Source: a virus. Taken from it: a stretch of 36,455 bases of DNA. Below the pieces are notes generated by a model, which saw only the letters and a program-made list of their open reading frames with translations, had not been told where the DNA came from and made no database searches. Positions 2,494-15,546 of the stretch are shown here, piece by piece. How positions within the stretch are numbered: the first letter of the stretch is position 1; every line of letters begins with the position of its first letter. Location: the IMG/VR virus record IMGVR_UViG_3300042691_023891, positions 1 through 36,455 of that record. One strand, 5' to 3'. The translations under genes were made by a program, and so were the position numbers.

Positions 2494-2500
2494 CCGCCCC

Positions 2501-2515
2501 GCGTTAAGCGGCTAA
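2501..2515. promoter_or_regulatory. Operator-like half site downstream of the repressor gene
   Basis: GCGTTAAGCGGCTAA. Its complement TTAGCCGCTTAACGC follows operator 1 (TTAGGCCGCTTAAGG) with one base missing. It lies eight bases after the repressor stop and just upstream of the -35 box of the rightward promoter. Confidence 0.4.
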
Positions 2516-2524
2516 AGATACCTG

Positions 2525-2554
2525 TTGACGGGTAGCGATTAAGGGGCTTAAGGT
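2525..2554 (+). promoter_or_regulatory. pL-like promoter for the rightward early genes
   Basis: TTGACG (2525-2530), 18 bases, then TAAGGT (2549-2554), the same -10 as the cro promoter. The operator at 2535-2553 fills the spacer and -10 box. The transcript would begin near 2561 and reach the first gene, at 2617, after a leader of about 55 bases with AGGAG before the ATG. Confidence 0.6.
2535..2553. promoter_or_regulatory. Operator 3 (rightward side)
   Basis: GCGATTAAGGGGCTTAAGG, 16 of 19 bases identical to the complement of operator 1. It has the same orientation and nearly the same offset relative to its promoter (four bases after the -35 here, three on the cro side). Confidence 0.65.
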
Positions 2555-2616
2555 CTGCGGCATCCGCAACGGAGAGCCGCATAGGGCGGCGTCGTAGTGC
2601 GGATCAGGAGCCGCAC

Positions 2617-2985
2617 ATGCCCAATTCTTCCATTGATGCGCTGATGCCAGCCCTTCGCGCCGAGCTTGAACGCGCTTACGAGCACGGCCGCGCCGACGCT
2701 CGGCAGGAACTGGCCCGCGCACTTGGCGTGGCTTCCGTGCCCCCCGCCGCGCCCGTTGTTGCTTTGCGGCCGAAGCGGGCGGCGCGGGGCACGCAGATTG
2801 CAGCCGTTCAGCGCGCGCTGTCCAAGCAGCCCCGCCGGTTTAGCGAGATACAGCGCGTTGCCGGCGTCAAGAAGGACGGGGCGCTCCACAGCATCCTTTG
2901 CGCGCTTGTCGCGCGCGGTGTTGCGGTGAAGGTGGCGCGCGGCCTGTATGCGCTTCGGCAGACCAACGGCCACGCGGCGTCGTAG
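2617..2985 (+). CDS. First rightward early protein, winged-helix-like C-terminus, 122 aa
   Basis: AGGAG eight bases upstream supports the ATG. Residues 1-40 are a helical N-terminus (ALMPALRAELERAYEHGRAD), followed by a Pro/Ala linker. Residues 60-115 read like a small winged helix: TQIAAVQRALSKQP, RFSEIQRVAGVKK, LHSILCALVARGVAVKVARG, ending in LYALR. Such domains occur in DNA-binding phage proteins. As first product of the repressor-controlled rightward operon it could be a regulator. No exact family is recognised. Confidence 0.72.
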   Translation: MPNSSIDALMPALRAELERAYEHGRADARQELARALGVASVPPAAPVVALRPKRAARGTQIAAVQRALSKQPRRFSEIQRVAGVKKDGALHSILCALVARGVAVKVARGLYALRQTNGHAAS

Positions 2986-2989
2986 TGCC

Positions 2990-3241
2990 ATGATCGCAGC
3001 ATACCGCGACGACTGCGGTTTCGTAGGCGAGCCGCGCCGCCCCGACGCCGCCGTCGAGCGCGCCGAAGCCGCCGACCTGGCGGGCCGCCGAGCCTACATG
3101 GCCGCCGACGATCTGGCCGGCGTGCTGGATCGCGCCGCGCTCGACTACGGCACCGACGCCGACGCGCTTGACGAGATCGCCGTGCGTATCCGTGCGATCA
3201 CAGCCGAGGTCGCGGCGCTGCTCGGGGAGGCCGCGCGATGA
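2990..3241 (+). CDS. Small acidic helical protein, 83 aa, unknown
   Basis: I start this at the ATG of MIAAYRDDCGF, four bases after the preceding stop. A start 14 codons earlier would overlap that gene. The product is rich in Ala, Asp and Arg and appears all-helical (AVERAEAADLAGRRAYMAADDLAGVLDRAAL, shown here only as a type). It has no motif I recognise. Its stop overlaps the ATG of the pentapeptide gene (ATGA), so the two are translationally coupled. Confidence 0.65.
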   Translation: MIAAYRDDCGFVGEPRRPDAAVERAEAADLAGRRAYMAADDLAGVLDRAALDYGTDADALDEIAVRIRAITAEVAALLGEAAR

Positions 3242-3885
3242 GCCTATTTCAGATCAAGCGCCAGTTTACCGGCGCGATGCTTTTTGAAGGCGAGTTTGGC
3301 TCACTGCGCTTGTGCGTTGAAGCGGCGGTAAATGCGTGCGCCAACCTCACGGGCGCCAACCTCGTGGGCGCCAACCTCGCGGGCGCCAACCTCGCGCGCG
3401 CCAACCTCGGGGGCACCAACCTCGCGGGCGCCTACCTCGCGGGCGCCAACCTCGCGCGCGCCAACCTCGCGGACGCCTACCTCGCGGGCGTCAACCTCGT
3501 GGGCGCCAACCTCGCGGGCGCCAACCTCGTGGGCACCAACCTCACGGGCACCTACCTCGCGGGCGCCAACCTCGCGCACGCCGACCTCGCGCGCGCCAAC
3601 CTCGCGGGCGCCGACCTCGCGTGCGCGCTTATCCGCGAAGGCGTGAAACTGCGTGAGCGCGGCGTCGCCAAGGAATGCACACGTAGCGACGGCTACCGCT
3701 TCTTACTGCTGGATACGCAGGCGGATTGGCGCTGGCGCGTTATGGCGGGATGCAGGTTTTTCACGCTGCCGGAAGCGTGGGCGCATTGGGAGCGCACGCG
3801 CGCCGGCATGCCGCTTGGCGAAGAGACGTTCGACATCCTCGTGGTGTTCGAACATCACGCCGAGCGCGTGGAGGCCGCGCGATGA
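3238..3885 (+). CDS. Pentapeptide-repeat protein, 215 aa
   Basis: After an N-terminal segment (IKRQFTGAMLFEGEFGSL, residues 6-23), residues 34-131 hold about twenty pentapeptides of the form A(N/D/Y)LxG. Known proteins of this kind fold as a right-handed square beta-helix. Some (MfpA, Qnr) mimic DNA and act on gyrase, but most phage members have no known target. The C-terminal 85 residues form a separate domain with the conserved-looking stretch WRWRVMAGCRFFTLPEAWAHW broken by one extra turn. I recall this arrangement from phage pentapeptide proteins that lack a defined role. The repeat is nearly perfect at DNA level too. It overlaps both neighbours by 4 bp. Confidence 0.88.
   Translation: MSLFQIKRQFTGAMLFEGEFGSLRLCVEAAVNACANLTGANLVGANLAGANLARANLGGTNLAGAYLAGANLARANLADAYLAGVNLVGANLAGANLVGTNLTGTYLAGANLAHADLARANLAGADLACALIREGVKLRERGVAKECTRSDGYRFLLLDTQADWRWRVMAGCRFFTLPEAWAHWERTRAGMPLGEETFDILVVFEHHAERVEAAR
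3343..3620. repeat. 15-bp tandem repeat array inside the pentapeptide gene
   Basis: About eighteen near-perfect copies of a 15-bp unit (CTCGCGGGCGCCAAC and close variants). Changes fall mostly at the two variable codon positions. The unit is in frame, so copy changes add or remove whole pentapeptides. Its repeat nature opens long reading frames in every frame of both strands here, and these are artefacts. Confidence 0.9.
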
Positions 3886-4082
3886 GCCCCGCAGACACCA
3901 TCCGCGCTGCGGTGGACGCCATTGAAGCCGCGCAGCTCGCGCTTGCCAGCGTGCCGCGTGATGCGCGCTACGACCTTGAAGACGAAGACCGCCTCGACCT
4001 GGAGATGTTCGAGGCGTGGTTGCGCTATCCGCCGATCCGGCTGGATGCGGCGGCGCGCATTGTGAAGGAGATCGCGGCATGA
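3882..4082 (+). CDS. Small protein of 66 aa, unknown
   Basis: ATGA-coupled at both ends. The sequence begins MSPADTIRAAVDAIEAAQLAL, a helix. It continues with an acidic stretch (DLEDEDRLDLEMFEAWL) and ends in a helix ARIVKEIAA. It is highly acidic in the middle and has no cysteine or membrane segment. No family is recognised. Its place among coupled small genes of the rightward operon suggests an accessory early protein. Confidence 0.6.
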   Translation: MSPADTIRAAVDAIEAAQLALASVPRDARYDLEDEDRLDLEMFEAWLRYPPIRLDAAARIVKEIAA

Positions 4083-4405
4083 GCGACGTGGACACCAGCG
4101 CCGAGGCCGTGGAGCGGCTTTCCTATACCCTCACCGACGCCGCCAGCGTCACCGGCCTAAGCGTCGCCACGCTCTACAGGCACGCGAAGGCGCAACGCCT
4201 TCGTCTCTTCAAGGTCGGCGGCAGGACACTGGTTTGCGCCGCCAGCCTGCGCGCGCTGCTGACCGAGCGCGACGCGGCGCGGGCTGTGGAGGAGCGCGCG
4301 ATTGATGTTGGGCGTGCGGAATGCTGCGGCGATCCCGATTACTGGCTTCCGGTATGGCGCGCAGCCGCAGCCATCCGCGCGCGCGGGGAGGCGAGCGATG
4401 AGTGA
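4079..4405 (+). CDS. MerR/excisionase-type HTH protein, 108 aa
   Basis: Residues 15-70 read YTLTDAASVTGLSVATLYRH, then KAQRLRLFKVGGRTLV and an LRALL helix. This is the layout of the small winged-HTH domain (HTH_17) found in excisionases and MerR-like regulators: recognition helix SVATLYRHAK and a wing LFKVGGRT. A C-terminal 40 residues follow, with DPDYWLPVWRAAAAIRAR. It lies in the integrase operon, so excisionase or directionality factor is a fair guess. Two other small HTH genes in the same operon compete for that role. The start is the ATG overlapping the previous stop. Confidence 0.75.
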   Translation: MSDVDTSAEAVERLSYTLTDAASVTGLSVATLYRHAKAQRLRLFKVGGRTLVCAASLRALLTERDAARAVEERAIDVGRAECCGDPDYWLPVWRAAAAIRARGEASDE

Positions 4406-4670
4406 TGCGCAGTGGGTTGAGGTTGCGATGGACAGCGACGTGCGCGGCGACCCCATTGAATACGGCGTCCGGTTCCTCGCGGACGGGTCGGTCGAAGTGT
4501 GCCGTATCATCAACCGTTCACCGGTCAGTCGCAGCGGCAATTATCAGATTGATCGCGTGTGGCGCCGTATCAAAGCAACAGGTCCGGTCGGATTGCGCGC
4601 CGTCGCGGCAGCGGCGCGCATCTTGGATAACCGCGCCGCCATCGCCAAGGCCGAAGGCACCGCGCCATGA
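4398..4670 (+). CDS. Small phage protein of 90 aa, unknown
   Basis: The ATG at 4398 overlaps the preceding gene by eight bases (ATGAGTGA). The first half is strand-rich (QWVEVAMDSDVR, YGVRFLADGSVEVCRI). The second half is helical (LRAVAAAARILDNRAAIAKAEG). No catalytic motif or signal is visible. Coupled to the tiny membrane protein downstream by an ATGA. Confidence 0.6.
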   Translation: MSDAQWVEVAMDSDVRGDPIEYGVRFLADGSVEVCRIINRSPVSRSGNYQIDRVWRRIKATGPVGLRAVAAAARILDNRAAIAKAEGTAP

Positions 4671-4819
4671 ACCGCCCCCGCGTGAACGCTTGGCCGCTGA
4701 TCGGCATGTTTTGCGTCGGCATCTCCGGCGCGCTGGTGATCCATGCTGTGGCGCGCTTTGACGAATTGGTGCGCGCGGTGCTGTGGCCGGTCGTGGTGCT
4801 GGCGGAGTATGCGCGATGA
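4667..4819 (+). CDS. Tiny membrane protein, 50 aa
   Basis: ATGA-coupled to genes on both sides. It has two hydrophobic stretches: residues 9-29 (WPLIGMFCVGISGALVIHAV) and residues 37-48 (AVLWPVVVLAEY). It should be an inner-membrane peptide with one or two passes. The N-terminus carries two arginines (MNRPRVN), favouring a cytoplasmic N-terminus. It is not in the lysis region, so a holin role is unlikely. Exclusion or another membrane function is possible but not shown. Confidence 0.55.
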   Translation: MNRPRVNAWPLIGMFCVGISGALVIHAVARFDELVRAVLWPVVVLAEYAR

Positions 4820-5061
4820 ACACCATCCGCCTGATCGAGGCATGGCGCGAACACATGCTTTGCGTCGCCGCAGACCGCCGCGCCGCCGCGTATCGCTACC
4901 GCGACGCGGGCGACACCGAGCGCGCCGAGATGGCCTTAGACGAGGCGGGCGACGCGCTGGCGAAGGCAAACGCACTGCGGGATCTGCTGGCCGAGCGCGA
5001 TGATGTGCAGGTCAACGACCCGCGCCAACTGGCGCTGATGAACATTGGAGAGGAAGCATGA
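4816..5061 (+). CDS. Small helical protein of 81 aa, unknown
   Basis: Start at the ATG overlapping the previous stop. The product is almost entirely helical: a Trp/Arg N-terminal helix (IRLIEAWREHMLCVAADRRA) and a long charged segment (DTERAEMALDEAGDALAKAN) compatible with a coiled coil. It ends in DVQVNDPRQLALMNIGEEA. No domain recognised. The next gene begins in its last codons. Confidence 0.6.
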   Translation: MNTIRLIEAWREHMLCVAADRRAAAYRYRDAGDTERAEMALDEAGDALAKANALRDLLAERDDVQVNDPRQLALMNIGEEA

Positions 5062-5285
5062 GCAACTGGTTGCTGCTAAACATGACCAATGAAGGCGGCG
5101 AGTTGCCGCTAGGCGTGGTCGTGGTGCGGGTAGATGCGATTGCATACATCCAGCACCGCACGAACGGGCGGACCATTATTCAGTTTGTTGGCAGCGAAGA
5201 CAATTACATCCACGTTCAGGAAACCGCCGCCGAAATCGACGCGGCGCTGCTGACAGAGATGCGCATCCCGGAAGGAGGCCGCTGA
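5058..5285 (+). CDS. Small beta-rich protein of 75 aa
   Basis: A GAGAGGAAG ribosome site precedes the ATG, which also overlaps the stop upstream. The body is strand-rich (LLNMTNEGG, LGVVVVRVDAIAYIQH, RTIIQFVGSEDNYIHVQET) and ends in a short helix AEIDAALLTEM. This looks like a compact beta-barrel or sheet domain such as small phage proteins that bind a partner protein. I know no match. The next start is one base after its stop. Confidence 0.62.
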   Translation: MSNWLLLNMTNEGGELPLGVVVVRVDAIAYIQHRTNGRTIIQFVGSEDNYIHVQETAAEIDAALLTEMRIPEGGR

Positions 5286-5286
5286 C

Positions 5287-5712
5287 ATGAGCAACGGCTG
5301 GCCCGACAGCGCGCGCATGACCGGCGACGATATCGCGCGGCTGCGCGCGCTAATCCAGCGCGTCGAAGCGGCGACGGGGCCGGATCGAGTGCTTGATGCC
5401 GAGATAGCATGCGCCATGTGCCGGCTTCGGCTTCGCGAACATGGCGCGCGTCCTGACCCGATGGCACCGGGCTGCGTGCGCGATATTGCTGGCTCTTGGT
5501 CAGCGCCCGAATTCACAGACAGCCTTGACGCCGCTGTGTTGCTGGTGCCGGCGGGGCGTGACTGGATGACAGGCACGCACCAAAGCGCGGCAACTGCCGT
5601 TGTGACGCGCGCCGCCGACGAAGGGGCTTGGCTTACAGCCGCCACGCCTGCGCTTGCGCTTGTTGCCGCCGCCCTTCTCGCGCGGCTCGCGGAGGTTCGC
5701 GATGACTGCTGA
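5287..5712 (+). CDS. Early phage protein with possible ABA-sandwich-type domain, 141 aa
   Basis: After a helix (DDIARLRALIQRVEAATGPDR) the protein reads LDAEIACAMCRL, SLDAAVLLVPAG, WMTGTH, then AAVVTRAADEGAWLTAATPALALVAAALLARL. The order of these blocks is like the small domain named Phage ABA sandwich in proteobacterial prophages, whose function is not known. The match is from memory and needs a profile search. No membrane role is expected for the Ala/Leu-rich end, which is a cytosolic-looking amphipathic helix. Confidence 0.65.
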   Translation: MSNGWPDSARMTGDDIARLRALIQRVEAATGPDRVLDAEIACAMCRLRLREHGARPDPMAPGCVRDIAGSWSAPEFTDSLDAAVLLVPAGRDWMTGTHQSAATAVVTRAADEGAWLTAATPALALVAAALLARLAEVRDDC

Positions 5713-5941
5713 CGCACCATCCGAGATCGTCGCCGCGCTGGAAGCGGCCGGCGCTGCGGTTGCCGCAAAACATGAGGAAAACGGTTGCCACCTCGGGTTC
5801 CCGTGCGGCTTGACTTGTTCTTGCGCCGACGACGCAGCCGCCGCCGTCGCCGCGTTCCATCGGCGCATGGCCGAGGGCGGCAACCACATGCAGATGTATC
5901 ACGCGGTAATCGCCGCAGCAGTCGAGAGGACCGCGCGATGA
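5702..5941 (+). CDS. Small Cys/His-containing protein of 79 aa
   Basis: It overlaps the preceding gene by 11 bases; the start is the ATG of MTADAPSEIVAAL. Two helical arms (EIVAALEAAGAAVAAKHEE and AAAAVAAFHRRMAEGGNH) flank a short loop NGCHLGFPCGLTCSC with four cysteines and a histidine. The loop may bind a metal ion or form disulphides. The C-terminal helix carries HMQMYHAVIAAAVE. No family recognised. ATGA-coupled to the HTH gene that follows. Confidence 0.6.
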   Translation: MTADAPSEIVAALEAAGAAVAAKHEENGCHLGFPCGLTCSCADDAAAAVAAFHRRMAEGGNHMQMYHAVIAAAVERTAR

Positions 5942-6153
5942 CGCAACGCGCCCTAAGCGAATGGGAACTCGTCAACAACGTCCTGGCCGATGCGTGCGTG
6001 GTCGCCGGGTCGCAACAGGCATGGGCGCGCGAGAACGGGATCAGCCCGCAATTCGTCTGCGACGTGCTGCAAGGCCGGCGCGCGCCGAGCGACCGCCTGG
6101 CCCGCGCGCTCGGCTATCGGCGTGTTGTGTCGTTCGAAAGGATCAAGCGATGA
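5938..6153 (+). CDS. Small XRE/Cro-type HTH protein, 71 aa
   Basis: The whole product is one helix-turn-helix: residues 20-50 read CVVAGSQQAWARENGISPQF, continuing VCDVLQGRRAPSDRLARALGY. The VLQGRRAPS turn followed by RLARALGYRRV is characteristic of small phage regulators related to Nil2/Cro. It ends in a basic tail. ATGA-coupled upstream. It could regulate the integrase region or late switching, but no operator resembling its target can be named from the sequence. Confidence 0.75.
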   Translation: MTQRALSEWELVNNVLADACVVAGSQQAWARENGISPQFVCDVLQGRRAPSDRLARALGYRRVVSFERIKR

Positions 6154-6174
6154 CGGCGCAGGAAGGCGCGCGGG

Positions 6175-6315
6175 ATGAGTGAGGCGATGCTCTGGCCGTG
6201 GATCGCGCTCGGCGCATGGTGCTTCGGCTTCTGCGCCGGAATCGCGTGGTGTGCGCAATGGCGCCCGACGCGCATCGAGATCAACATGAAGCAGGAGCCG
6301 CCGCGCGATGCCTGA
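6175..6315 (+). CDS. Single-pass membrane peptide, 46 aa
   Basis: AGGAAGG sits ten bases before the ATG at 6175. A hydrophobic helix spans residues 5-27 (MLWPWIALGAWCFGFCAGIA), unusually rich in Trp and Cys, followed by a polar tail RPTRIEINMKQEPPRDA. The gene overlaps the next by eight bases. A 10-codon ORF (6150-6182) links it by ATGA overlaps to the HTH gene upstream and may serve only to carry ribosomes across. Function unknown. Confidence 0.55.
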   Translation: MSEAMLWPWIALGAWCFGFCAGIAWCAQWRPTRIEINMKQEPPRDA

Positions 6316-6562
6316 CGCGCCGGGCCGTTGGATAACGCGCGCCGAAGCCGCAAAGTATGTCGGGCTGTCCGTGGTGGCGTTCTCCCGCCGCGTGGCAGCC
6401 GGCGACCTGCCCGCCCCCTCCGACGCACTCGGGCCGCGCTGCCTGCGCTGGGATCGCCTCGCGCTAGACAGCGCCATGGGCGGCGGCATAGCCTCGCCGG
6501 TCGGAGCATCAACCCTTGCCGCAGCCATCATCGAAGAAGCGCGCCGGCCGAACCGTCCGTAA
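6308..6562 (+). CDS. AlpA/excisionase-like HTH protein, 84 aa
   Basis: Residues 7-50 read RWITRAEAAKYVGLSVVAFS, then RRVAAGDLPAPS and an LRWDRLALD end. This is the compact winged HTH seen in AlpA-type regulators and excisionases (helix EAAKYVGLS, recognition VVAFSRRV). It overlaps the integrase gene by 47 bases, and this direct coupling makes it the best excisionase or directionality candidate in the window. The basis for that role is position plus fold. No binding site is identified. Confidence 0.75.
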   Translation: MPDAPGRWITRAEAAKYVGLSVVAFSRRVAAGDLPAPSDALGPRCLRWDRLALDSAMGGGIASPVGASTLAAAIIEEARRPNRP

Positions 6563-7472
6563 GACGCTCGCGGATGGTTCGGTCAAGGTCTACCGCTACC
6601 CCGTGCACAAGCCGCGCGCCGTCCCGGCCGCCGACACGATGCGGGCGCTACTCCGCGCTTACGAAGCCAGCCCGGACTTTGCCGCGCTCGCCAAGGCCAC
6701 GCGGGCGCAATACCTGATTTACCTGCGCCCGTGGTTGAAGGTGGCCGAGGCCCGACCGCGCGACGTAACCCGCCGCGATATCCTTGCCGCCCGCGACGCC
6801 ATCGCCACCACGCGCGGGCTTGGCGCGGCAACGGCTTTCGGGCGCGTCACGGGCGCACTGTTCGCTTGGGCGCTGGATCGGGAATGGGTGGACCACAACC
6901 CGGCCGCGCGACTGCGGGCGCTGCCAAACGGGGAGCTGCCTGCGTGGTCCGAGGCGCAGATATCAACGGCGCTGGATAGGTTGCCCGAGCCGTTGCGGCG
7001 CGTGGTGGTGCTGGCGCTGCACACTGGCCAGCGGCGCGGGGATCTCTGCGCTATGGCGTGGTCGCAATACGACGGGCGGGCCATCCGGCTACGGCAAGCC
7101 AAGACAGGCGCGGCGCTGGTCATCCCGTGCCACCCGGCGCTGCGCGATGAACTGGACGCATGGGCGCAGGCCAAGGCGGGGCCGTTGATCCTCGCCAGCC
7201 CGCGCACCGGGGCATGGCAGCCGGCGCACCTGTCGCGGGAGATGAAGCGGGCGCTAGCCGAGATCGGGTTGCCCGCGCGCCTGAACGTTCACGGCCTACG
7301 CAAGGCAGCAGCGCGCCGGCTGGCCGAGGCAGGATGCAGCGCGTTGGAGATCGCCGCCATTACTGGCCACCGGACGCTAGGCATGGTTGCGCACTACACG
7401 CGTAGCGCGGATCAGGAGCGAATGGCGGGCGCGGCGGTGTCGCGGCTAATCTTCAAGAAAGACAGTGCCTAG
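6516..7472 (+). CDS. int: Tyrosine integrase, 318 aa
   Basis: Site-specific recombinase that would insert the phage into the host chromosome. The catalytic set is complete: Arg173 (HTGQRRGD), Lys196 (RQAKTG), His259 and Arg262 (HGLR), His285 (TGHRTLG) and the nucleophile Tyr294 (VAHYTRS). Residues 44-130 are the SAM-like core-binding domain. The start is a TTG behind a GGAG. It is needed to include residues 12-28 (RTVRKTLADGSVKVYRY), which recur in the next protein. The following gene starts 38 bases on. No attachment core can be identified from this sequence alone. Confidence 0.95.
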   Translation: MPQPSSKKRAGRTVRKTLADGSVKVYRYPVHKPRAVPAADTMRALLRAYEASPDFAALAKATRAQYLIYLRPWLKVAEARPRDVTRRDILAARDAIATTRGLGAATAFGRVTGALFAWALDREWVDHNPAARLRALPNGELPAWSEAQISTALDRLPEPLRRVVVLALHTGQRRGDLCAMAWSQYDGRAIRLRQAKTGAALVIPCHPALRDELDAWAQAKAGPLILASPRTGAWQPAHLSREMKRALAEIGLPARLNVHGLRKAAARRLAEAGCSALEIAAITGHRTLGMVAHYTRSADQERMAGAAVSRLIFKKDSA

Positions 7473-7510
7473 CGGTTGTTTTTGTCGGCAGTTGTAACCA
7501 CATATCGGGC

Positions 7511-8047
7511 ATGGAAAACCGCACAAGCGCCCTAGTCGGAAAGGCCGCCCTTCATCTGGCGTGCTTCCATCTTGCTCGGCTCGGCTACGATTTCACCATC
7601 ACCCGCGAGAACAGCAAGACTGGCGATCTGTGGGTTGATTTTGGTGAGCGCCTAGAGGTCGTTGAAGTGAAAGGCATGACTGCTGGCGCTTGGCAGTTGA
7701 AGGCAGATCAACTCGCGCGGACAGATCGCTTCGTTTTTGTGGATGTTGACGATGGGGCTAGTTGGCTGGTGGCTTGCGCCGACATAGCCGCACATATGGG
7801 CGGGAAAATCCGGTCCTCCCTCACCGTGCGACAGATCAGCAAGATGCCGTCCGTCGCACTGCACACGCGCTTGGGGCGCGTTGTTCCTCGCCCCGTTGTG
7901 AGCAAAAGTGAGCCATACGACCCCGCCAAGAAGGGGAGCAGGACCGTAACCAAACGCCTCGCTGATGGGACTGTGAAAGTCTACAAATATGGTCCCTACA
8001 GGAGCCGTCGCGACAACCAATCGACAACCGCAACCGGCGCCTTTTAA
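7511..8047 (+). CDS. PD-(D/E)XK nuclease-like accessory protein with integrase-type peptide tail, 178 aa
   Basis: Residues 9-30 give a helix and strand (GKAALHLACFHLARLGYDF). Asp39 (TGDLWVDF) and Glu52-x-Lys54 (EVVEVKG) follow on adjacent strands, with a helix containing WQLKADQ afterwards. This is the D...E-x-K layout of PD-(D/E)XK nucleases or of their non-catalytic relatives. A linker then leads to residues 144-160, which match the integrase N-terminus at 13 of 17 positions. No good ribosome site precedes the ATG. The gene is visibly A/T-richer than its neighbours (for example 31 G/C in 60 bases at 7621-7680, against 46 of 60 at 7201-7260), suggesting later acquisition. A role in recombination or defence is possible but unproven. 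Confidence 0.7.
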   Translation: MENRTSALVGKAALHLACFHLARLGYDFTITRENSKTGDLWVDFGERLEVVEVKGMTAGAWQLKADQLARTDRFVFVDVDDGASWLVACADIAAHMGGKIRSSLTVRQISKMPSVALHTRLGRVVPRPVVSKSEPYDPAKKGSRTVTKRLADGTVKVYKYGPYRSRRDNQSTTATGAF

Positions 8048-8138
8048 CCCATTGAATGGATTAGCAAAAAATGCGTGCAATCTTCGTCATGAGGATATGC
8101 GCGCGTTGATTTTGTTAGCGAATTCCGGCGCCGGTTGC
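8030..8138. repeat. Perfect 12-bp inverted repeat flanking the convergent gap
   Basis: GCAACCGGCGCC at 8030-8041 and its complement GGCGCCGGTTGC at 8127-8138. The pairing continues outward for about eight more bases (CGACAACC against TGTTGTCG) if one base is looped. The 85 bases between are A/T-rich and lie between the plus-strand integrase block and the minus-strand late block. The arms are too far apart for a normal terminator. Candidates are integration-site architecture, the edge of an inserted segment, or a long-range RNA stem. Confidence 0.6.
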
Positions 8139-8167
8139 CTGTTGTCGTGCTGGCGTTCGGTTGGCGT

Positions 8168-8350
8168 TCACCCCGGCGGCACCGTCGCTAGCGCCTTCTG
8201 CCGCGCGACGTAGCTCCACACTGCGCCGGCCACGGCCAGCACGGCGCCGGTTACGGCTTCCCACAGCGCGGCATCGCCAATGCCGGCCTTCGCCATCACG
8301 GCGCCGAGCGCGACAAGCGCCATCCGCAGCGCCCATAGGGCGGTGTCCAT
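8168..8350 (-). CDS. Holin-like small membrane protein, 60 aa
   Basis: Two hydrophobic segments, residues 3-22 (TALWALRMALVALGAVMAKA) and 29-49 (LWEAVTGAVLAVAGAVWSYV), are joined by a short loop and followed by a short basic tail (ARQKALATVPPG). Size, two-pass layout and position at the end of the late operon fit a class II holin; I recall the Pam3 gp28 type as similar. Holins form the membrane lesions that time lysis. No endolysin gene is next to it, which weakens the call slightly. Confidence 0.65.
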   Translation of the reverse strand: MDTALWALRMALVALGAVMAKAGIGDAALWEAVTGAVLAVAGAVWSYVARQKALATVPPG

Positions 8351-8377
8351 GCTCTTTGTCCTATGTCCAGATCTGTA

Positions 8378-8611
8378 CTACATCTCCATCGGCTCTGTCG
8401 GCAGCGGATACGGCCCATCCTCGCCGCATCGGATAGCCGAGCGCCTGCCGCACTTGGGGCAAGGAAACCGCTCGCGCGGGACGGTGTATGTCGCGTCGAG
8501 CAGCGCGCCGCAGTTCACGCATTCCAAATCGCTGCGGAACGTCGGGCCGATGTTCGCCGCGCCCGCGCGCGCTAACTCGCGCACGGCATGCGAAATGCGC
8601 TTTCGGGCCAT
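8378..8611 (-). CDS. Zinc-ribbon protein, 77 aa
   Basis: AGGAG eight bases upstream supports the ATG at 8611. A basic helical N-terminus (ARKRISHAVRELARAGAAN) is followed by two CxxC pairs, CVNC (31-34) and CPKC (51-54), the pattern of a four-Cys zinc ribbon. A further Cys lies at residue 62. It is likely a small nucleic-acid- or protein-binding protein. It sits between a structured RNA candidate and the holin gene. No family named. Confidence 0.65.
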   Translation of the reverse strand: MARKRISHAVRELARAGAANIGPTFRSDLECVNCGALLDATYTVPRERFPCPKCGRRSAIRCGEDGPYPLPTEPMEM

Positions 8612-8635
8612 GCGGCGGGCTCCTATATTGTGCGG

Positions 8636-8724
8636 GCTGCGGAACCGTGTGAGACACGAACCTGCCCCGAGTTCGCGCGACGGGGACACCAGGCTCAGTC
8701 GGGATTGTCGACCTGACCCGCAGC
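8636..8724 (-). ncRNA. Candidate structured RNA: three hairpins closed by a 7-bp stem
   Basis: On the minus strand GCTGCGG at the 5' end pairs perfectly with CCGCAGC at the 3' end, 89 bases overall. Inside are three hairpins. (A) TCAG-G-TCG pairs with CGACTGA around the 7-base loop ACAATCC. (B) CCTG..CCCCG pairs with CGGGGCAGG, with a 4-base bulge and an 11-base loop. (C) CGTGT pairs with ACACG around CTC. Almost every base is used. It fills the otherwise empty gap between two late genes in a genome where genes normally touch. The shape is cloverleaf-like, but it lacks a T-loop (TTCRANY) and a 7-base anticodon loop, so it is not a standard tRNA on either strand. Function unknown. It could be an sRNA, a processing site or a regulator of the zinc-ribbon gene. 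Confidence 0.4.
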
Positions 8725-8726
8725 AT

Positions 8727-9677
8727 CTACCCCGCCAACGCCTCGCCCCTAAACCACGCCTTGCCGTCCACAACTTCGCAAAGCTCCGGCTGCAACAGCT
8801 TACCGCCGCGCACGGTCAGCACCGCCCAGCCCGGCGTCCACTGCCTCGGCGCCGCCTTGCCATACGCGAAGATCGGCCAATTCGGATCGGCCAGCATGCC
8901 GAGCTGCACCCCGTAGCGGCGTTCGCGGAGATCCCGGAACGGCCTGCATTCCAGCGCGTGCGTATCGCCCGTGATGATCGAGACGCCGCCCTTGACCACA
9001 TTATTCCAGCTTGCGTGGATGCCCCCATGCCAGCGGTGCATGCACTGGAACGCCCCGAAATCCAGCCGCCACGCCTGCCGCCAGTCCGGGAACGCCTCGG
9101 CCAGCGTGGTGCCCGGCATGCCCCGCATCGGGTCGGCATGGCGGGCCAGGAACGCTTCTAATCTGTCGTCATGGTTGCCGCGCGCCCAGAAGCACTTGGC
9201 GCCGGGTGCCAGGTCGCGCAGGTCGGAAAGATGCCGCTGCGCCGCCTCCACCTCTTGCCGGACTTTCGGCCGGTCTTCCCACATCACCGGGTCGTGCCGG
9301 CCGATGCCGGCAAAGTCCATCAAGTCTCCGGCGCTCAACAGGTAATCCGGCTTGATGTCCGGCACCGCCCGGAGCATCGCCTCATGCGCCACGCTGCGGG
9401 GCTGTTCGATCCGCGTCCAGTGCGCATCAGAGAACGCCAAGAACACGCCGCCCAGGACCGGGAATTCGATCGTCATGGGGCACAGCTCAGGCCCCTTGGA
9501 CGGCACGGCTAACGGCGTGTCTGGATTGATGCCGCGCCGCTCGGCTACGTCGAGCCGGTTCTTGAACGTCATGTAGGGCAGGCCCAGCGCCTTAGCGGCC
9601 TGACGGACGTTGCCATGCTGCGCCAGCGCGGCGGATGCCTGCCGCGCGAGCGCGTCGGGGAGCGGCGGGGCTGCCAT
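8727..9677 (-). CDS. Calcineurin-like metallophosphoesterase with N-terminal HTH, 316 aa
   Basis: Metal-binding motifs appear in the standard order: D84-x-H86 (SDAHW), GD (GDLMDF, 117-122), GNHD (167-170, RGNHDD), and GDTH (237-240). His214 and His217 in MHRWHGG are further candidates. The first 45 residues are a separate helical domain (ALAQHGNVRQAAKALGLPYM) resembling an HTH, which phage phosphoesterases of this type often carry. The enzyme should hydrolyse a phosphoester, perhaps in nucleic acid or nucleotides; the substrate is not evident. It lies in the lysis end of the late operon. Its start overlaps the stop of the membrane protein before it. Confidence 0.85.
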   Translation of the reverse strand: MAAPPLPDALARQASAALAQHGNVRQAAKALGLPYMTFKNRLDVAERRGINPDTPLAVPSKGPELCPMTIEFPVLGGVFLAFSDAHWTRIEQPRSVAHEAMLRAVPDIKPDYLLSAGDLMDFAGIGRHDPVMWEDRPKVRQEVEAAQRHLSDLRDLAPGAKCFWARGNHDDRLEAFLARHADPMRGMPGTTLAEAFPDWRQAWRLDFGAFQCMHRWHGGIHASWNNVVKGGVSIITGDTHALECRPFRDLRERRYGVQLGMLADPNWPIFAYGKAAPRQWTPGWAVLTVRGGKLLQPELCEVVDGKAWFRGEALAG

Positions 9678-9967
9678 CAGTTCCCCCGCGAGGGCTGAAT
9701 ACCACGCAGCAGGATGTCCTCAATCCGCCGCAGCCCCGCCCGCACTTCCGCGAACGCCTCCCGCTCGCGGATATCGTCGGCGGCACGCGCGCGCGTTATC
9801 TCAAGCTCAAACCGTTCACGCGCATGCACTTCGAGCGCGATGGACTGCTTGAGGTCGTAGTAAGCCGCCGCCAATGCCGAAAACATGGCAAGCGCGGTCA
9901 GCAGGTTGCCGGCCGTTATGGTCCCGTCCCACTTGAGACGGGCTCTCTGCATGTTTTCGTCGGTCAT
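9677..9967 (-). CDS. Single-pass membrane protein with coiled-coil tail, 96 aa
   Basis: A hydrophobic helix at residues 19-40 (GNLLTALAMFSALAAAYYDL) is followed by a long charged helix (ALEVHARERFELEITRARAA, then DDIREREAFAEVRAGLRRIED). The layout suits a pinholin/holin partner or a spanin-like membrane protein. No cleavable signal is seen. It follows the fibre-like gene by two bases and overlaps the phosphoesterase start by one, so all are in one late transcript. Confidence 0.62.
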   Translation of the reverse strand: MTDENMQRARLKWDGTITAGNLLTALAMFSALAAAYYDLKQSIALEVHARERFELEITRARAADDIREREAFAEVRAGLRRIEDILLRGIQPSRGN

Positions 9968-9969
9968 GG

Positions 9970-10416
9970 CTAAGCGACCCGCCAGCAGAACCCGAAGTTT
10001 TGCCAGCCGGCAACGCCGAGAAGGATGGTCGTCCCGCCGGGGTCAACGCCGGCCGTGACGCTGGTCGTCAGAGCGCCCGTCGCATCGATCTTCGCGAGCG
10101 CGAAATACGCCCATGTGCCGCCCGCCGGCAGCGCCAATGCGCCGCCGACAGTTGACGCGATAGCTTTCCATTCCCCCACAATCGCACCATCCACCGGCAC
10201 CGCCGGCACGCTAAGCGTTGTGCGCGCCGCCGATGCGCTGGCGTCGTCAAGCAACGTGCGCGTGTAGGCCGTCGTCTCGGTGGACCTGCAAATGCTGTCC
10301 GACATCTCGGTCGCGAGGTCGTTAAAATTGCCGTTCCACTTGCTGGCGGTTATGGTTTCGTTGCCGGCGGCGGGGGATTCCGGCAGGGTGTAGTTATTTG
10401 ATCCGTCGCGCGGCAC
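9970..10416 (-). CDS. Short tail-fibre-like virion protein, 148 aa
   Basis: I place the start at a GTG (10416) preceded by GGAG, giving MPRDGSNNYTLPESPAAGNE. This opening is typical of podovirus fibre or tail-appendage proteins (MPRDGS-x-YTLP). A TTG six codons upstream is less likely. Residues 20-45 (ETITASKWNGNFNDLATEM) form the usual short helix. The rest is Gly/Thr/Ala-rich beta structure with a repetitive feel, such as TGALTTSVTAGVDPGG. Too short for a complete receptor-binding fibre, it may be an adaptor or knob. Confidence 0.7.
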   Translation of the reverse strand: MPRDGSNNYTLPESPAAGNETITASKWNGNFNDLATEMSDSICRSTETTAYTRTLLDDASASAARTTLSVPAVPVDGAIVGEWKAIASTVGGALALPAGGTWAYFALAKIDATGALTTSVTAGVDPGGTTILLGVAGWQNFGFCWRVA

Positions 10417-10432
10417 AGTCTTTCTCCATGGC

Positions 10433-10465
10433 AAAAAGCCCGCGCATCCGGTAGGATGGCGGGCT
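10433..10465 (-). terminator. Rho-independent terminator after the large ejection gene
   Basis: On the minus strand AGCCCGCCATCC pairs with GGATGCGCGGGCT across the loop TACC, with one bulged base, and runs into TTTTT. It lies about 75 bases downstream of the 702-aa ejection gene and would separate that part of the late operon from the fibre/lysis genes. Confidence 0.82.
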
Positions 10466-10466
10466 C

Positions 10467-10544
10467 ATGTGGTCTGTGATCCTGTTGTTCGCCGCTGGGG
10501 CGTGCGCGGCCATTATCGCCGCGTGGCTAGACCAGCGTGGCTAG
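10467..10544 (+). CDS. Possible 25-aa membrane peptide on the opposite strand
   Basis: ATG to TAG encodes MWSVILLFAAGACAAIIAAW plus LDQRG, a single hydrophobic helix. It begins right after the terminator hairpin and its stop meets the stop of the late gene tail-to-tail by four bases. Only a weak AGGA lies 11 bases upstream, and no promoter is obvious. It could be chance. Confidence 0.25.
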   Translation: MWSVILLFAAGACAAIIAAWLDQRG

Positions 10545-12649
10545 TCCACGGTCGCGAGCGATGCCCCCGCGCCCAAGCCGCGCATAAGCTGCTGCGCCAA
10601 TCCAGAACGCGCCAAGGCGGTAAGGCGGTCCTGCTCACGCTGCGCAAGCAGGCGCTGCACCGTCGCTTGCTGCGCCTGCGGGTTGGGGTCCATCAAGCGC
10701 GACGCCAAGGCATCGGCGGTGCTGCTGTTGATGCCCTGCGTGGCGCGGTAAATGTTCCCAGCCATCATGCGGCCCGCCTCCATCGGGCGGCTCATCAGAA
10801 GCGCCGCCAGCGCCCCGCCCGGCGGGTCGCGCCCCATGTCTTCGCCGCTGGCCTGTAGTCGGCGAGTCTGCGCCCCCGCGCGCGGCGAAATGGCGCGTTC
10901 GACGGCCGCCATCTCCACTTCGCGCTGCATCGCAGACATGAACTGCGCCCGCTGCGCCGGGTCCGGGATGGCGGCACTCAACCGCGCCTGCATCTGCCGG
11001 CCCTCAAGCAAGCGCCGCGCGGCCGTCGCGGCCCGCGCCGGGTCGCTGGCGCTGTCCGTGATGGCGCGACCGACGCCGAGGCGGAAGAATTCAAGGTCGG
11101 AAGGCGAAAGCCGCTGCACGATCCCCCGAACGATGTCGGGGTCCGTGGTAAGCGCCTGCCGACCGCGCGCGACGGCATCAAGGGACTGAGACGGTCCAGC
11201 CCATGCGTCCAAAGCGCCGCCATAGCGAGGATACATCTCGCGCATGTTGCCCGTGTAGCCGGCGCGCACGTCATTCACCGCCTGGCCATACTGATCAAGG
11301 TTTAGCCGCCCCGATGTCGGGTCGCGAAAACCCTCAACAATTTCGTCATAGCCGCGCTTGATGGCATCCAGAAGGCGCAGGTTCCGATATCCGTTCTGCA
11401 CCACAAATTCGCCATTGTCGCCGCGCGTCACGCCGTATTCGGCGGGATTGAAAGGCGCGATGGATGGATCGCGCTGTCGGGCTGCGACGTTTTCCAGTTC
11501 CATCACTCGCAAGCCGCGCTGCAACGCCTGCTGCCCTATCGGGTCTTCGATGGCGGACAGAAGGCGCGCGACCTCCTGCTCCTCCGGCACGATCCGACTA
11601 AACGCAGCTTGGTAGCGAGGGCCTGCATTGGCCCTGCGCGCTTCTTGCAGCGCGGCGACTTCATCCGCCACCCGCGTCCCGCCGCCGCCGCCAAGGCCGT
11701 CGTCAACCGCCGCCGCAATACGCTCAGGGCGCCCGGCGCGCCGCGTCTGTACCAGCCTATCCGCAGCCTCCATGGCCGCGCCCGGCGTGTTGGCGGCGGT
11801 GCCGGCGAGCTGCACCACGTTGCGCCCGCCGAGCGCGTCCACAAGCGCCTGCCCTTCGGCCGGCGGCGCCATGCCGGGGCCGGGCGCGGGGCGCGACGCG
11901 CGCGCCAGCGCATCGGGCGCGCCGCCCGTCATGTCACGATTTACAGCGCGCAGGATCTGCCGGTCGGCTGCCAGGTTCGCGTTGCGAAGGCCGAGGTAGT
12001 CCATGACCCGCCCCGCGACTGGCGCAGCCGCAGAACCACCCGCGCCCAAGGCGCCGCCGAACGCGCCGCCGAGAAGCGCCCCCTGCGCCGCCCCCTCGGC
12101 GCGGCCTGCAACGCCCTCCCCTTCCCCGGCCCCGGCCAGCGCGCCGCCGGATGCGCCAGCCACAGACCCGCGCGTCAGACCGGAACGCAGGACACGTTGC
12201 GCTATCCCCGCCCCAACGGCGGCCGGCGCCATGGCGCCGACGCGCGCAAGCGGGCTCGCCACGGCGCCGACAACGTTGGCGACGCCGGACGCAATTGGGT
12301 TGTCCTGCCTAAACGCATCGTCGCGGGCGCGCTCCTGCGCCAGCGCCTCGCCGTAGTTGCCCCAAAGGCCGCCGCCCGTTCGGATGCCTGCCGCCGCTTC
12401 GTCCATCGTGCCGAAGGTGGCGCCCTGCGCAGCCTGCCGCGCAAGGCTGTCCACGTAGCCAAGCGGGCCGCTGTTGGCGTGTCGGGCCGCCTCCATCTGC
12501 GGCCCGCGCGACAGATGCTCCACAATGGCAGCGTCGGTATAGCCGGCCTGACGGGCGGCAGGCGCATCAAACCCGCGCTCTTGCGCAAGGTGGTTGGCAA
12601 TCTCGGAGTCGCTGTATCCGGCGCGGCGTGCGCCCTGCACATCGAACAT
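10541..12649 (-). CDS. Large ejection (internal virion) protein, 702 aa
   Basis: The N-terminus contains two copies of an AR(R/Q)AGY(S/T)D-x-x-I-x-x-HL motif (residues 6-21 and 31-46), seen in podovirus ejection proteins. Residues 120-220 are very rich in Gly and Ala with hydrophobic runs (GVANVVGAVASPLARVGAMA, LLGGAFGGALGAGG), compatible with insertion into the membrane during DNA entry. The C-terminal 450 residues are helical and charged. No enzyme motif stands out. It follows the transglycosylase ejection gene by three bases. Function by analogy: it forms part of the trans-envelope channel with that protein and the 351-aa protein. Confidence 0.72.
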   Translation of the reverse strand: MFDVQGARRAGYSDSEIANHLAQERGFDAPAARQAGYTDAAIVEHLSRGPQMEAARHANSGPLGYVDSLARQAAQGATFGTMDEAAAGIRTGGGLWGNYGEALAQERARDDAFRQDNPIASGVANVVGAVASPLARVGAMAPAAVGAGIAQRVLRSGLTRGSVAGASGGALAGAGEGEGVAGRAEGAAQGALLGGAFGGALGAGGSAAAPVAGRVMDYLGLRNANLAADRQILRAVNRDMTGGAPDALARASRPAPGPGMAPPAEGQALVDALGGRNVVQLAGTAANTPGAAMEAADRLVQTRRAGRPERIAAAVDDGLGGGGGTRVADEVAALQEARRANAGPRYQAAFSRIVPEEQEVARLLSAIEDPIGQQALQRGLRVMELENVAARQRDPSIAPFNPAEYGVTRGDNGEFVVQNGYRNLRLLDAIKRGYDEIVEGFRDPTSGRLNLDQYGQAVNDVRAGYTGNMREMYPRYGGALDAWAGPSQSLDAVARGRQALTTDPDIVRGIVQRLSPSDLEFFRLGVGRAITDSASDPARAATAARRLLEGRQMQARLSAAIPDPAQRAQFMSAMQREVEMAAVERAISPRAGAQTRRLQASGEDMGRDPPGGALAALLMSRPMEAGRMMAGNIYRATQGINSSTADALASRLMDPNPQAQQATVQRLLAQREQDRLTALARSGLAQQLMRGLGAGASLATVD

Positions 12650-12652
12650 GCG

Positions 12653-14251
12653 CTATTGCCTCTGGAAAGACGAAAGCGGGGGTCGGCCTGTGGCAGATGC
12701 CGGCGGGGCCGGGCGGACGTCGGGCGGCTGCGGCGGCTCAAAATTCTGATCAAACCGCCCGAAGTTCCCGCTGACGATTTCCTGCAAGCGCCGGGCTGCC
12801 TGCTGCTCGCGCACGGACACGGCATCAAGCGCGCGCCGGATCAACCGCTCACGGCTTTCCCGGCTCATGTTGGCGCTGGCCTGCATTTCAAGCAGGATCT
12901 GCCGCTCACCTTCCGTCGGATTGCCGCCGAATATCACGCGAAGCTGCGACAACGCCTGTTCCGTCATGATGCTATCAAATTCGCGCGTTGCGGCGCCGCT
13001 GCGGCTGTCAAAGCCGGTCATGGACGCCGCCGCCCCGCGCGTCTGAGCCATCGGGCCTGCATATGCCTGCGGGCTCAACTCAAGCGCGCGGGTAAGGGCG
13101 CCTTGCGCGGCGCGGGCGCCATTAAGTGCGTTCTCCGTCTCTTCCCGCAGGTTAACCTCGGTCGGCGTCATGCGGCGGCCCTCGCGCTGCTCACGGGCCG
13201 CCTGTTCCCTTGCTATGCGGGCTTCTTCGGCCTGCCGCTCACGCCATGCGCGATCCTCGGCCGCCTGGCGTTCCCGCCAAGTCTGATCATCGCGGCGCTG
13301 CTGCTGCGCCTGCTGTTGCGTGGCAAACTGCGCCGCTAGCGGGGCGATGCTCGCCATGGTCGGGTTGTTCTGCCCAAGCGCCGCCGACGCCAAGGCCAAC
13401 CCCTGCCAGTTCGGCACGTTGCCGGCCGAACCGGCCGCGCTGCCGCCCGGCATCCATCGCTCGACGTTCTGGGCGTAGTTTGGATCGCCGCCGCCGTTGT
13501 AGGTGCGCAGCGCGTTGGCCCGGAACGTCGGATCGTTCCAATCGCCTTGTCCTGCCCGCGCGCGGAGATACTGAGCGCCAAAGCGGATATTGGCGCCGGG
13601 ATCGCGCAGGGTCTCGGGGTCAACGCTCGGCAGCCCAAAGCCGGGCTGGCGCGCGGTGGACGGCTTGATCTGCATTACGCCGATCTCGCCGGCCGCCCCG
13701 ACTGCATCGGGCCGGAAGTTGCTTTCCTGCCGCGCCTGCGCGACCAGCACCGGCACCGGGATGCCCGTCTCTTCGGACGCGCGCTGGAAATGCGGCATCA
13801 GGTCCGGCGGCGGCAGGACTTCGGCCGTTACTGGCTCAGGGCGCGGCGCGGGACCTGATGGCGCGGCGTCGTTGGGCGCGGCAAGCATGGCAGGCGCAGT
13901 CCCGCCGGACGGCGCGCCCGGCAGGTTAATGCCCATGCCGGCCAGAAGCTGCCGCGTGCTTTCCTGCTGCTGCTGATCGCGCCGCGTTTGGTAGTCGCGG
14001 ATTTGGGCCAACCCTTCGGTGCGCCGCGTCTCGTCCTCCCGGTCTGCCTGATCCTGCATCCGGGCGCCGGTCCATGCGTCAAGGCCCTGCGACAGCGCAT
14101 AGGCCAGCGCCCCGGCGGTGTTGTTGAGCGGCCCGGCGGGCGGGCTGCCTGCCATGAGACGCGCTGCCACGGCGCGGCGGCCGTCCTGTCGCCCGCCGCG
14201 CTGGCCCAACTGGCCAAGCAGGGCTTGCGCCATCAAGTCAGAGGTGGCCAT
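12653..14251 (-). CDS. Ejection protein with lytic transglycosylase (SLT) domain, 532 aa
   Basis: Residues 150-260 carry a soluble-lytic-transglycosylase domain: HFQRASEETGIPVPVL, the catalytic Glu176 in ARQESNF, then GEIGVMQIKPSTAR and the closing TYNGGGDPNYA. Such domains cleave peptidoglycan between MurNAc and GlcNAc, in virions to open a path for DNA. The N-terminal 145 residues are Gln/Ala/Pro-rich. The C-terminal half has a long charged coiled coil (RERQAAEDRAWRERQAEEA). The size and domain order identify a virion-associated protein rather than a free endolysin. It is the only peptidoglycan-cutting domain I find in the window. Confidence 0.88.
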   Translation of the reverse strand: MATSDLMAQALLGQLGQRGGRQDGRRAVAARLMAGSPPAGPLNNTAGALAYALSQGLDAWTGARMQDQADREDETRRTEGLAQIRDYQTRRDQQQQESTRQLLAGMGINLPGAPSGGTAPAMLAAPNDAAPSGPAPRPEPVTAEVLPPPDLMPHFQRASEETGIPVPVLVAQARQESNFRPDAVGAAGEIGVMQIKPSTARQPGFGLPSVDPETLRDPGANIRFGAQYLRARAGQGDWNDPTFRANALRTYNGGGDPNYAQNVERWMPGGSAAGSAGNVPNWQGLALASAALGQNNPTMASIAPLAAQFATQQQAQQQRRDDQTWRERQAAEDRAWRERQAEEARIAREQAAREQREGRRMTPTEVNLREETENALNGARAAQGALTRALELSPQAYAGPMAQTRGAAASMTGFDSRSGAATREFDSIMTEQALSQLRVIFGGNPTEGERQILLEMQASANMSRESRERLIRRALDAVSVREQQAARRLQEIVSGNFGRFDQNFEPPQPPDVRPAPPASATGRPPLSSFQRQ

Positions 14252-14293
14252 TCAGGCGCCCCTTGCATTAGGGTGGAAGGATAGGAGGTCGGA

Positions 14294-14494
14294 ATGAGGA
14301 TTGTTGCGCTTCTGGCGCTAGCCATGCTCACGGGGTGCGCCCGGCAGCCCGCCGAGACTGCGGCTGCGGATATTTGCGCCAGCCAAGGCCATGCAGCCGG
14401 ATCGCCGGCTTTCCATTCGTGCTGGAATGCCGTGTATCCAGCCATCATGGCGGACCGTAGCCGCCGCGCCGCTGCTCTCGTCGCCGCGCCTTAG
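14294..14494 (+). CDS. Small lipoprotein on the strand opposite the late genes, 66 aa
   Basis: GGAGG lies five bases before the ATG. The product has a classic lipoprotein signal peptide (MRIVALLALAMLTGC) with lipobox LTGC, Cys15 being the lipidated residue. A short mature part follows with Cys28 and Cys43 fourteen residues apart in a C-x3-G-x3-GS-x2-F-x2-C pattern, probably one disulphide. It is transcribed against the late operon, between two ejection-protein genes. It ends stop-to-stop with the next gene, overlapping it by 4 bp. It looks like a lysogenic-conversion (moron) gene, or an outer-membrane lipoprotein that affects superinfection. This role is inferred. Confidence 0.7.
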   Translation: MRIVALLALAMLTGCARQPAETAAADICASQGHAAGSPAFHSCWNAVYPAIMADRSRRAAALVAAP

Positions 14495-15546
14495 CGCCCG
14501 CCGAAATAAGAACCGCCGGCACGGGCCGCGCTGCCGAGCAGGCTAGCCAACGCTTGGTTGTTGGCCTGCTGGTTCTGTAGCTTTGACTGGTAATTGCTGT
14601 TGATCATCCCAGCGAGGTCCGGCGCATTCACCCCCACCGGCTGCATCGGCACCGCCTGCGGCATCTGCATGCCCGGCCCAAGCTCGAACAGCGTGGCGAT
14701 TTCGTTGATCGGCTGCGCGCGCAACTGCATCCGCTCGGCAAGCTGCGCCTGCCGCGTCTGGTTCCCAAACGTCGCATCCTGCGCCCGCTGGCCGAAAATT
14801 TGCCCATGCGCGGCATTGGTGAACAGGCCGGCGTTGCGCGCCTCGCCTAGCAGCCGCGACTGCTCCGCGCCGCCCTGCGCCGTGATTGCCAGCCGCGCAT
14901 CGTTCAAGGAGCGATTGGCTTCGTCTGCCGCAGCACGATACGCTTCAGTGCCGGGCTGGAAGCCCTGCGACAAAAGACGCGCCTCCAACGCTTCGCGCTG
15001 CCGCTCGAACTGCGGGTTGAGCCGGTCAAACATGGCTTGCTCGACGCGTTGCCGATCCGCGCTAAAACCATCGGCCGGCGCGTAATTGCTCACCACGCCC
15101 TCGCCCGCGCCTGGCAGGCTGGTGCGCCAGTCTGCCATGCCGTCTGTCGTTAACGGCGTGTCGAGCATCGTTTGAACGCGCGGAATCTGCGACAGCGCGA
15201 GATCGTTAAATTGCGTGTCGAGCCTGACGCCCTGGTCGTAGAGGTTCCGCTGCTCCGGGCTCAGTTCAACGCGCGTTTCCCAACGGTCTTTGTGGGGATT
15301 GACCCGCTCGAAATACTGCCGCATGCCCTCCACGTCGAAGCCGTCCGGGTTGCTTGCGGCGTGCTGCGCCATCTGCTCGTCAACCCAGCGCGGGTTGATC
15401 TGCCGCTGCGTGACGTTGCCGAAGGGCGTGAGCGTGTCGCCACGGTTCAGGTTGGCCTGTAGCCGCGCCGTGTCGGCGTTGACTTGGCCTTGCGCCTGCG
15501 CCGTCGCGTAAGGGTCGGGCGCAGACGGCCCGCGCTTGCTGCCCAT
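14491..15546 (-). CDS. Probable ejection or internal virion protein, 351 aa
   Basis: The opening MGSKRGPSAPDPYATAQAQG followed by VNADTARLQANLNRGDTLTPFGNVTQRQ is of a kind I associate with podovirus virion proteins near the ejection genes. The middle is helical and Gln/Arg-rich (FERQREALEARLLSQGFQPG, AADEANRSLNDARL). The C-terminus turns to Gln/Asn/Gly with ANNQALASLLGSAARAGG, possibly a membrane-active tail. No enzymatic motif. It starts directly after the stop of the GNAT gene. Confidence 0.65.
   Translation of the reverse strand: MGSKRGPSAPDPYATAQAQGQVNADTARLQANLNRGDTLTPFGNVTQRQINPRWVDEQMAQHAASNPDGFDVEGMRQYFERVNPHKDRWETRVELSPEQRNLYDQGVRLDTQFNDLALSQIPRVQTMLDTPLTTDGMADWRTSLPGAGEGVVSNYAPADGFSADRQRVEQAMFDRLNPQFERQREALEARLLSQGFQPGTEAYRAAADEANRSLNDARLAITAQGGAEQSRLLGEARNAGLFTNAAHGQIFGQRAQDATFGNQTRQAQLAERMQLRAQPINEIATLFELGPGMQMPQAVPMQPVGVNAPDLAGMINSNYQSKLQNQQANNQALASLLGSAARAGGSYFGGR

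Follow-up and report, generated by a model that had tools for sequence, protein, structure and literature searches.

Positions 8636–8724 of the window, that is, of the whole stretch of 36,455 nucleotides analysed here (IMG/VR virus record IMGVR_UViG_3300042691_023891), very probably encode an autonomous tRNA-like ncRNA. The fuller description, which is also considered probable, is that of the gene of a small stand-alone phage RNA on the + strand, tRNA-like but with the anticodon arm replaced, and transcribed from a promoter of its own. Its shape would be that of the upper half of a tRNA. Elements of the same family, which has no entry in Rfam, were found in no fewer than a dozen phages and prophages that are unrelated to each other, frequently next to tRNA genes of the phage, and the short and divergent copy of the window is a likely member of this family.

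The element (89 nt) was formed by a perfect 7-bp stem (GCTGCGG/CCGCAGC) around three hairpins, just as an earlier note on this DNA had described it, and the fold holds for either strand. On the + strand, the 5' strand of the acceptor-like stem P1 (GCTGCGG, 8636–8642), whose first base is the predicted transcription start, is followed by a 2-nt linker (8643–8644), a D-like arm CCGTG (TGAGA) CACGA (8645–8659) with 4 pairs, the outer pair being lost, a variable centre hairpin CCTG CCCCG ... CGGGG ACAC CAGG (8661–8693), which replaces the anticodon arm and is not conserved in relatives, and a T-like arm GTCGG (GATTGTCGAC) CTGAC (8698–8717), with one G-U pair on the + strand, abutting the 3' strand of P1 (CCGCAGC, 8718–8724). 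The base after the stem (8725) is an A, as in 11 of 15 members (p 1e-5), and resembles the tRNA discriminator base. The parts paired in the family structure are 8636–8642/8718–8724, 8646–8649/8655–8658 and 8698–8702/8713–8717, plus the centre hairpin; the description of almost no unpaired bases was overstated. The folding energy of the 89 nt (z −1.97 on the + strand and −1.27 on the − strand, about 0 with flanks) was weak by itself, slightly better than chance. The segment stands above chance because of the covariation observed in its relatives and because models trained without the window recovered the same coordinates.

The gene coordinates confirmed that the element occupies a gap between two minus-strand genes, the metallophosphoesterase and the zinc-ribbon gene. 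The metallophosphoesterase gene (8727–9677, −), on the strand opposite to the element, ends with a TAG stop at 8729–8727, and only 8725–8726 lie between the stop and the element. On the other side there is a 77-aa zinc-ribbon-like ORF (8378–8611, −; ATG at 8611), the downstream gene of the earlier note, for which Pfam and PHROG matches were not found. A tyrosine-type phage integrase gene (6516–7472, +), directed towards the late operon, lies about 1.2 kb from the element, and the window looks like a temperate phage. Minus-strand frames are open across 8636–8724 (a 121-aa ORF at 8361–8726, and the zinc-ribbon frame, open upstream to 8773), and the first differences between the window and the related phage L003 resembled third-position changes in the zinc-ribbon frame. 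Coding was not supported, because the equivalent frame of L003 has a stop directly before the element and the differences within the element follow the pairs; later members showed base-pair compensation. ARAGORN detected no tRNA at 8636–8724, and no tRNA gene was present near the window copy or near the L003 copy. With Rfam 15, no family reached the gathering cut-off for the window element; at permissive thresholds, c4-a1b1 (E 0.15) and sul1 (E 4.7) were sub-threshold chance matches.

Relatives were reached through the similarity of the phosphoesterase, which led to three IMG/VR phages, L003 among them. In L003 the phosphoesterase neighbour is 51% identical, and an element-like sequence occurs farther downstream in this operon, in a corresponding position between the phosphoesterase and holin-type genes. 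Read on the minus strand, L003 and the window agree over the initial 30 nt and the final 22 nt of the element and have an identical closing stem (blastn E 0.001 over 1.15 Mb; 0/5000 shuffles score as well). Among 66 other phosphoesterase relatives, the 35 inspected had no element directly after the gene, and therefore the element is not tied to the phosphoesterase gene. Patterns from both element ends retrieved more copies in viral contigs, and BLAST with these reached named records; the IMG/VR members were partly chosen by sequence patterns. In total, about 15 further members beyond L003 were found, in IMG/VR phages, named phages, a plasmid and a prophage. Copies without annotation are carried by Pseudanabaena phage Pan3, Caulobacter phage DMCA (25554–25686 of PQ480021.1), Komagataeibacter phages phiKX1 and phiKX2, and Alcaligenes phage QDWS595, and also by a Roseomonas mucosa plasmid, after a GH108 endolysin gene; another copy was located in a bacterial genome, within a prophage-like cluster of tRNA genes. 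The main T-arm pattern recovered one prophage copy among 398 Pseudomonadota genomes and no new copy among 385 genomes of the class of the prophage host.

Several candidates were discarded. The pattern matches in L087, L089, L091–L093 and most of L098–L181 were due to chance, as were the BLAST matches in Citromicrobium, Caulobacter rhizosphaerae, Azospirillum and Cupriavidus, which lie inside genes or lack the stem. In the genome contigs the protein scan gave no matches, and the pattern scan gave four chance matches, each without the partner strand. L106 carries a tRNA-like sequence that was not matched by the model CM R1 and was not accepted as a member; this sequence (7802–7891, reverse strand) has a normal tRNA T-arm (GTGGGTTCGAATCCCAC), no recognisable anticodon arm and an endolysin-like ORF nearby, and is possibly a decayed tRNA. 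Two viral contigs harbour both a main-subfamily and a divergent copy, L135 at 2980–3132 (−) and 86–214 (−), and L146 at 1034–1176 (+) and 808–912 (−), the latter two about 120 nt apart and in divergent orientation. In L111 (3742–3872, reverse strand), an 11-bp inverted repeat (gggtggatgaa/ttcatccaccc) flanks the element and extends the closing stem.

Every member has a closing stem of 7 bp, a linker of 2 nt and a D-like hairpin of 5 bp, then a variable centre (about 35–140 nt) and a T-like hairpin, also of 5 bp, which abuts the second strand of the closing stem. In the sense of the window + strand, the consensus of the closing stem is NNNGCGG/CCGCNNN and the linker is mostly CG; the D-like loop is GAnGGA in the main subfamily and of the GAGA type in the other subfamily, and the T-like loop of the main subfamily is UAUCAAGY. 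Covariation was assessed on a trimmed alignment of 11 rows and 17 pairs, in which 98.9% of the cells pair, 9 of the 17 pairs changed on both sides and all three helices covary, with a score of 0.298 against 0.096 in shuffled alignments (0/500) and ≤0.055 in slid controls. RNAalifold, unprompted, returned the same structure as the family model. Most of the paired changes were contributed by members that BLAST had picked up by way of a different part of the RNA. One example is QDWS595, which was detected from the T-arm only; all five of its D-stem pairs are different or compensated, and it differs, always with compensation, in most pairs of the D-stem and in the three outer pairs of the acceptor. 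A lack of compensatory change, an ordinary tRNA and coding were examined as grounds against the structure, and none of them refuted it.

The same changes bear on the possibility, raised by the earlier note, of a tRNA gene in decay, retained by chance alone. The tRNA-like outline, the absence of a normal anticodon arm and the relatives with nested or adjoining tRNAs are as expected from decay, but all three stems were kept by compensatory change across very different phages, the promoter spacing is common to the members, and the window copy keeps 16 of the 17 family pairs. Compensatory changes and common promoter spacing therefore indicate selection on the family, for which decay is largely refuted, and for the window element this origin is judged very improbable.

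The assignment of the window copy to the family was evaluated with a pair model and with two covariance models (CM R1 and CM R2). A pair model trained on 12 other members, with the window copy left out, gave 31.8 bits at exactly 8636–8724 (+), whereas no other site exceeded 22.8 bits in the window or 23.5 bits in 229 kb from other phages. The model CM R2, built from 13 other members trimmed to the length of the window copy and made after CM R1 had failed on this copy, had 8636–8724 (+) as its best match, with 24.5 bits against 15.0 for the next one in 250 kb (E 0.06); on positions 1–20000 of the window alone, the E value was 0.005. The centre of the window copy is much shorter than in the full-length copies from which CM R1 was built, and this model accordingly missed it (rank 7, 14.5 bits, E 0.4); it found other untrained copies in L086 (E 3e-6), L111 (E 8e-6) and L090 (E 2e-4). 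The window copy has the 7-bp stem, the 2-nt linker and the layout of D-like and T-like arms. It differs from the main subfamily in having no D-loop GG, no UAUCAAGY T-loop and no CG linker, and it is one D-stem pair short. Its divergent loops, its absence from the matches of CM R1 and the E value of 0.06 in 250 kb are what a chance look-alike of a real family would give. However, both models trained without it placed 8636–8724 first in the genome with exact coordinates, the similarity to L003 extends to both ends and to the gene neighbourhood, and the copy has a −10 box of its own, so that chance resemblance is unlikely.

Seven of the nine members that were found first have a −10-like box ending 5–6 nt upstream of the stem's first base, on the strand corresponding to the window + strand. 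The boxes are TATATT in the window, TACAAT in L003, TACTAT in L085, TACAAA with TGGACA in L088 and TATAGT in L135; the main copy of L135, found later with CM R1, has TTGCCT-17-TAGAAT and then 6 nt to the stem. In the window, TATATT (8624–8629, +) ends 6 nt before the element, touches on the other strand the AGGAG of the zinc-ribbon gene, and is equalled by 0.2% of random sites; a weak −35-like hexamer, TTCGGG (8602–8607, +; 2/6 matches), precedes it with a 16-nt spacer. The mean promoter score of the first 9 members on this strand was 6.96, against 4.44 ± 0.37 for random sites of the same sequences (0/20,000 simulations), in a test that was not blind, the boxes having been spotted by eye beforehand; on the opposite strand it was 4.30 (p 0.64). 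The 15-member set scored 6.33 against 4.50 ± 0.28. Taken by themselves, the seven members found later gave a weak signal (p 0.04); among them, the box is clear in DMCA and Roseomonas. About a third of the members have no −10 box. Strong terminators were observed downstream only in Pan3 and phiKX1, and none was seen after the window copy. Since the box is at a fixed place on one strand and the neighbouring genes of the members run in either orientation, the family looks like an autonomous RNA gene, with the window copy on the + strand and antisense to the late genes.

The strand of this signal is also what separates such a gene from a hairpin of the minus-strand late mRNA, upstream of the zinc-ribbon gene, that would act in processing, stability or the control of translation; the earlier note had likewise considered a processing or stability element or a regulator of the downstream gene. 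The site is bordered by late genes on both sides and immediately precedes a minus-strand SD, in L003 too a gene with AGGAG is the next one in that direction, and the stems pair on the minus strand as well. Nevertheless, the promoter signal was detected on the other strand only, relatives are found in either orientation to their neighbours, several of them in tRNA clusters, and the + strand is favoured by the G-U pairs within the stems of the window copy, L085, L135, DMCA and phiKX1; a role within the late mRNA is accordingly improbable. That the element works as folded DNA, in recombination, integration or packaging, and not as an RNA might be suspected from the inverted-repeat conserved ends around a variable centre, from the position in gaps in either orientation and from the integrase near the element in the window, DMCA and phiKX2. 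This explanation is considered highly unlikely, given a promoter whose position predicts a start at precisely the first base of the stem, the tRNA-like base that follows the stem, the G-U pairs tolerated on one strand and the location in tRNA clusters. Among the four options of the earlier note, the one favoured is a small RNA of no known family with a tRNA-like outline, with covarying stems and no Rfam match.

The connection with tRNA was also apparent in the genomic context. The copy of L197 is situated between tRNA-Trp and tRNA-Met, that of L135 directly before tRNA-Met and tRNA-Thr, that of phiKX1 about 120 nt after tRNA-Met, and that of QDWS595 near four tRNA-like genes; in this last phage, a tRNA-like gene with a 2-base anticodon call (L187, 415–487) lies about 1.4 kb upstream of the element. 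The Pan3 element encloses a sequence above the Rfam tRNA cut-off, and the L090 element one that ARAGORN reads as a tRNA whose anticodon loop is reduced in size; the enclosed tRNA-like sequences at L182 5060–5125 and L090 11964–12036 have abnormal anticodon arms. In Roseobacter phage DSS3P8 (L198, KT870145.1), an unannotated tRNA-Pro-like sequence at about 2455–2527, which occurs at the same place in L199 as well, has an 8-nt T-loop UAUCAAGC as in the family and receives no call from ARAGORN, which in the same phage predicts a permuted tmRNA at 2599–3020 with the tag ANINNAPMEMAIAA, unannotated in the region shown.

Compared with tRNA (RF00005), the family has a 7-bp acceptor-like stem, a 2-nt linker, a D-like arm, a T-arm abutting the acceptor and an A after the stem; in the main subfamily the D-loop carries GG and the T-loop is UAUCAAGY, which differs from UUCAAGY by a single additional A. 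The statement that no T-loop is present was therefore true of the window copy, but its relatives carry a tRNA T-loop with one extra A. In contrast to tRNA, the family has no anticodon arm, a centre of 35–140 nt and an 8-nt T-loop, and neither ARAGORN nor the Rfam tRNA model recognises it, the only exception being the enclosed sequence of Pan3. The window copy, with a variable centre, has no anticodon arm with a 7-nt loop, and its T-loop (GATTGTCGAC) and D-loop (TGAGA) differ from a 7-nt TTCRANY T-loop with a matching D-loop GG.

In kind, the closest precedent is a pair of stable RNAs of phage T4, C and D (also called species 1 and 2), which are likewise small and encoded in a tRNA cluster. A genuine tRNA T-arm forms the end of RNA C, but neither RNA fits the family descriptor or CM R2, and both lack the layout of 7-bp stem, linker and D-like arm. 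tmRNA has a tRNA-like domain with the anticodon arm replaced, whereas the family is far too small and lacks the G-U at acceptor pair 3, and ARAGORN found no tmRNA tag-coding or pseudoknot region in the window or at the loci of the relatives. Bacterial Y RNA (YrlA) is a small RNA with a tRNA-like module; compared by Rfam only, it differs from the family in layout. GOLLD and ROOL are also phage or prophage RNAs near tRNA islands, but they are ornate cages and far larger (GOLLD >800 nt in many members), and the family has no Rfam match to them. GOLLD linkers sometimes contain tRNAs (PMC12286853), a nesting similar to that in Pan3 and L090, which suggests that nested tRNA-like sequences are not limited to giant GOLLD RNAs. 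No description of the family was found in the open-access literature, to which the search was confined, so an earlier description is possible.

According to the proposed model, a sigma70-type promoter of the element would start transcription at the first base of the 7-bp stem, on the + strand and against the late operon; tRNA-type processing would give the same 5' end. The RNA would fold into an acceptor-like stem, a 2-nt linker, a D-like arm, the variable centre and a T-like arm stacked on the acceptor, usually followed by an A. With an acceptor/T half and a D-like arm but no decoding arm, it could not work as a normal tRNA. We infer its expression, three-dimensional shape and function, and only tentatively suggest that it acts as a decoy or scaffold for a tRNA-handling factor; the acceptor/elbow surface might be offered to a tRNA nuclease, a processing enzyme or a translation factor during infection or lysogeny. 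Antisense pairing with the late mRNA is possible in the window, but antisense regulation is not the general role of the family, because the orientation to the neighbours varies. More speculative, and rather doubtful, is the view of the family as a new class of phage tRNA mimic, an independent transcription unit that would use the acceptor/elbow half as a scaffold, carry an exchangeable domain (sometimes a whole tRNA-like sequence) instead of the anticodon arm, and act by binding or blocking a defence factor of the host that handles or cleaves tRNA.

Few phage small-RNA families have been defined by covariation, and the present one is unannotated; its hosts are phages of several proteobacterial groups and one with a cyanobacterial host, and it includes the cultured phages DMCA, phiKX1, phiKX2 and QDWS595. 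As the family keeps half of a tRNA and drops the decoding half, the binding partner in the host becomes a concrete question, and whether such RNAs may protect the phage against tRNA-targeting defences is a testable one.
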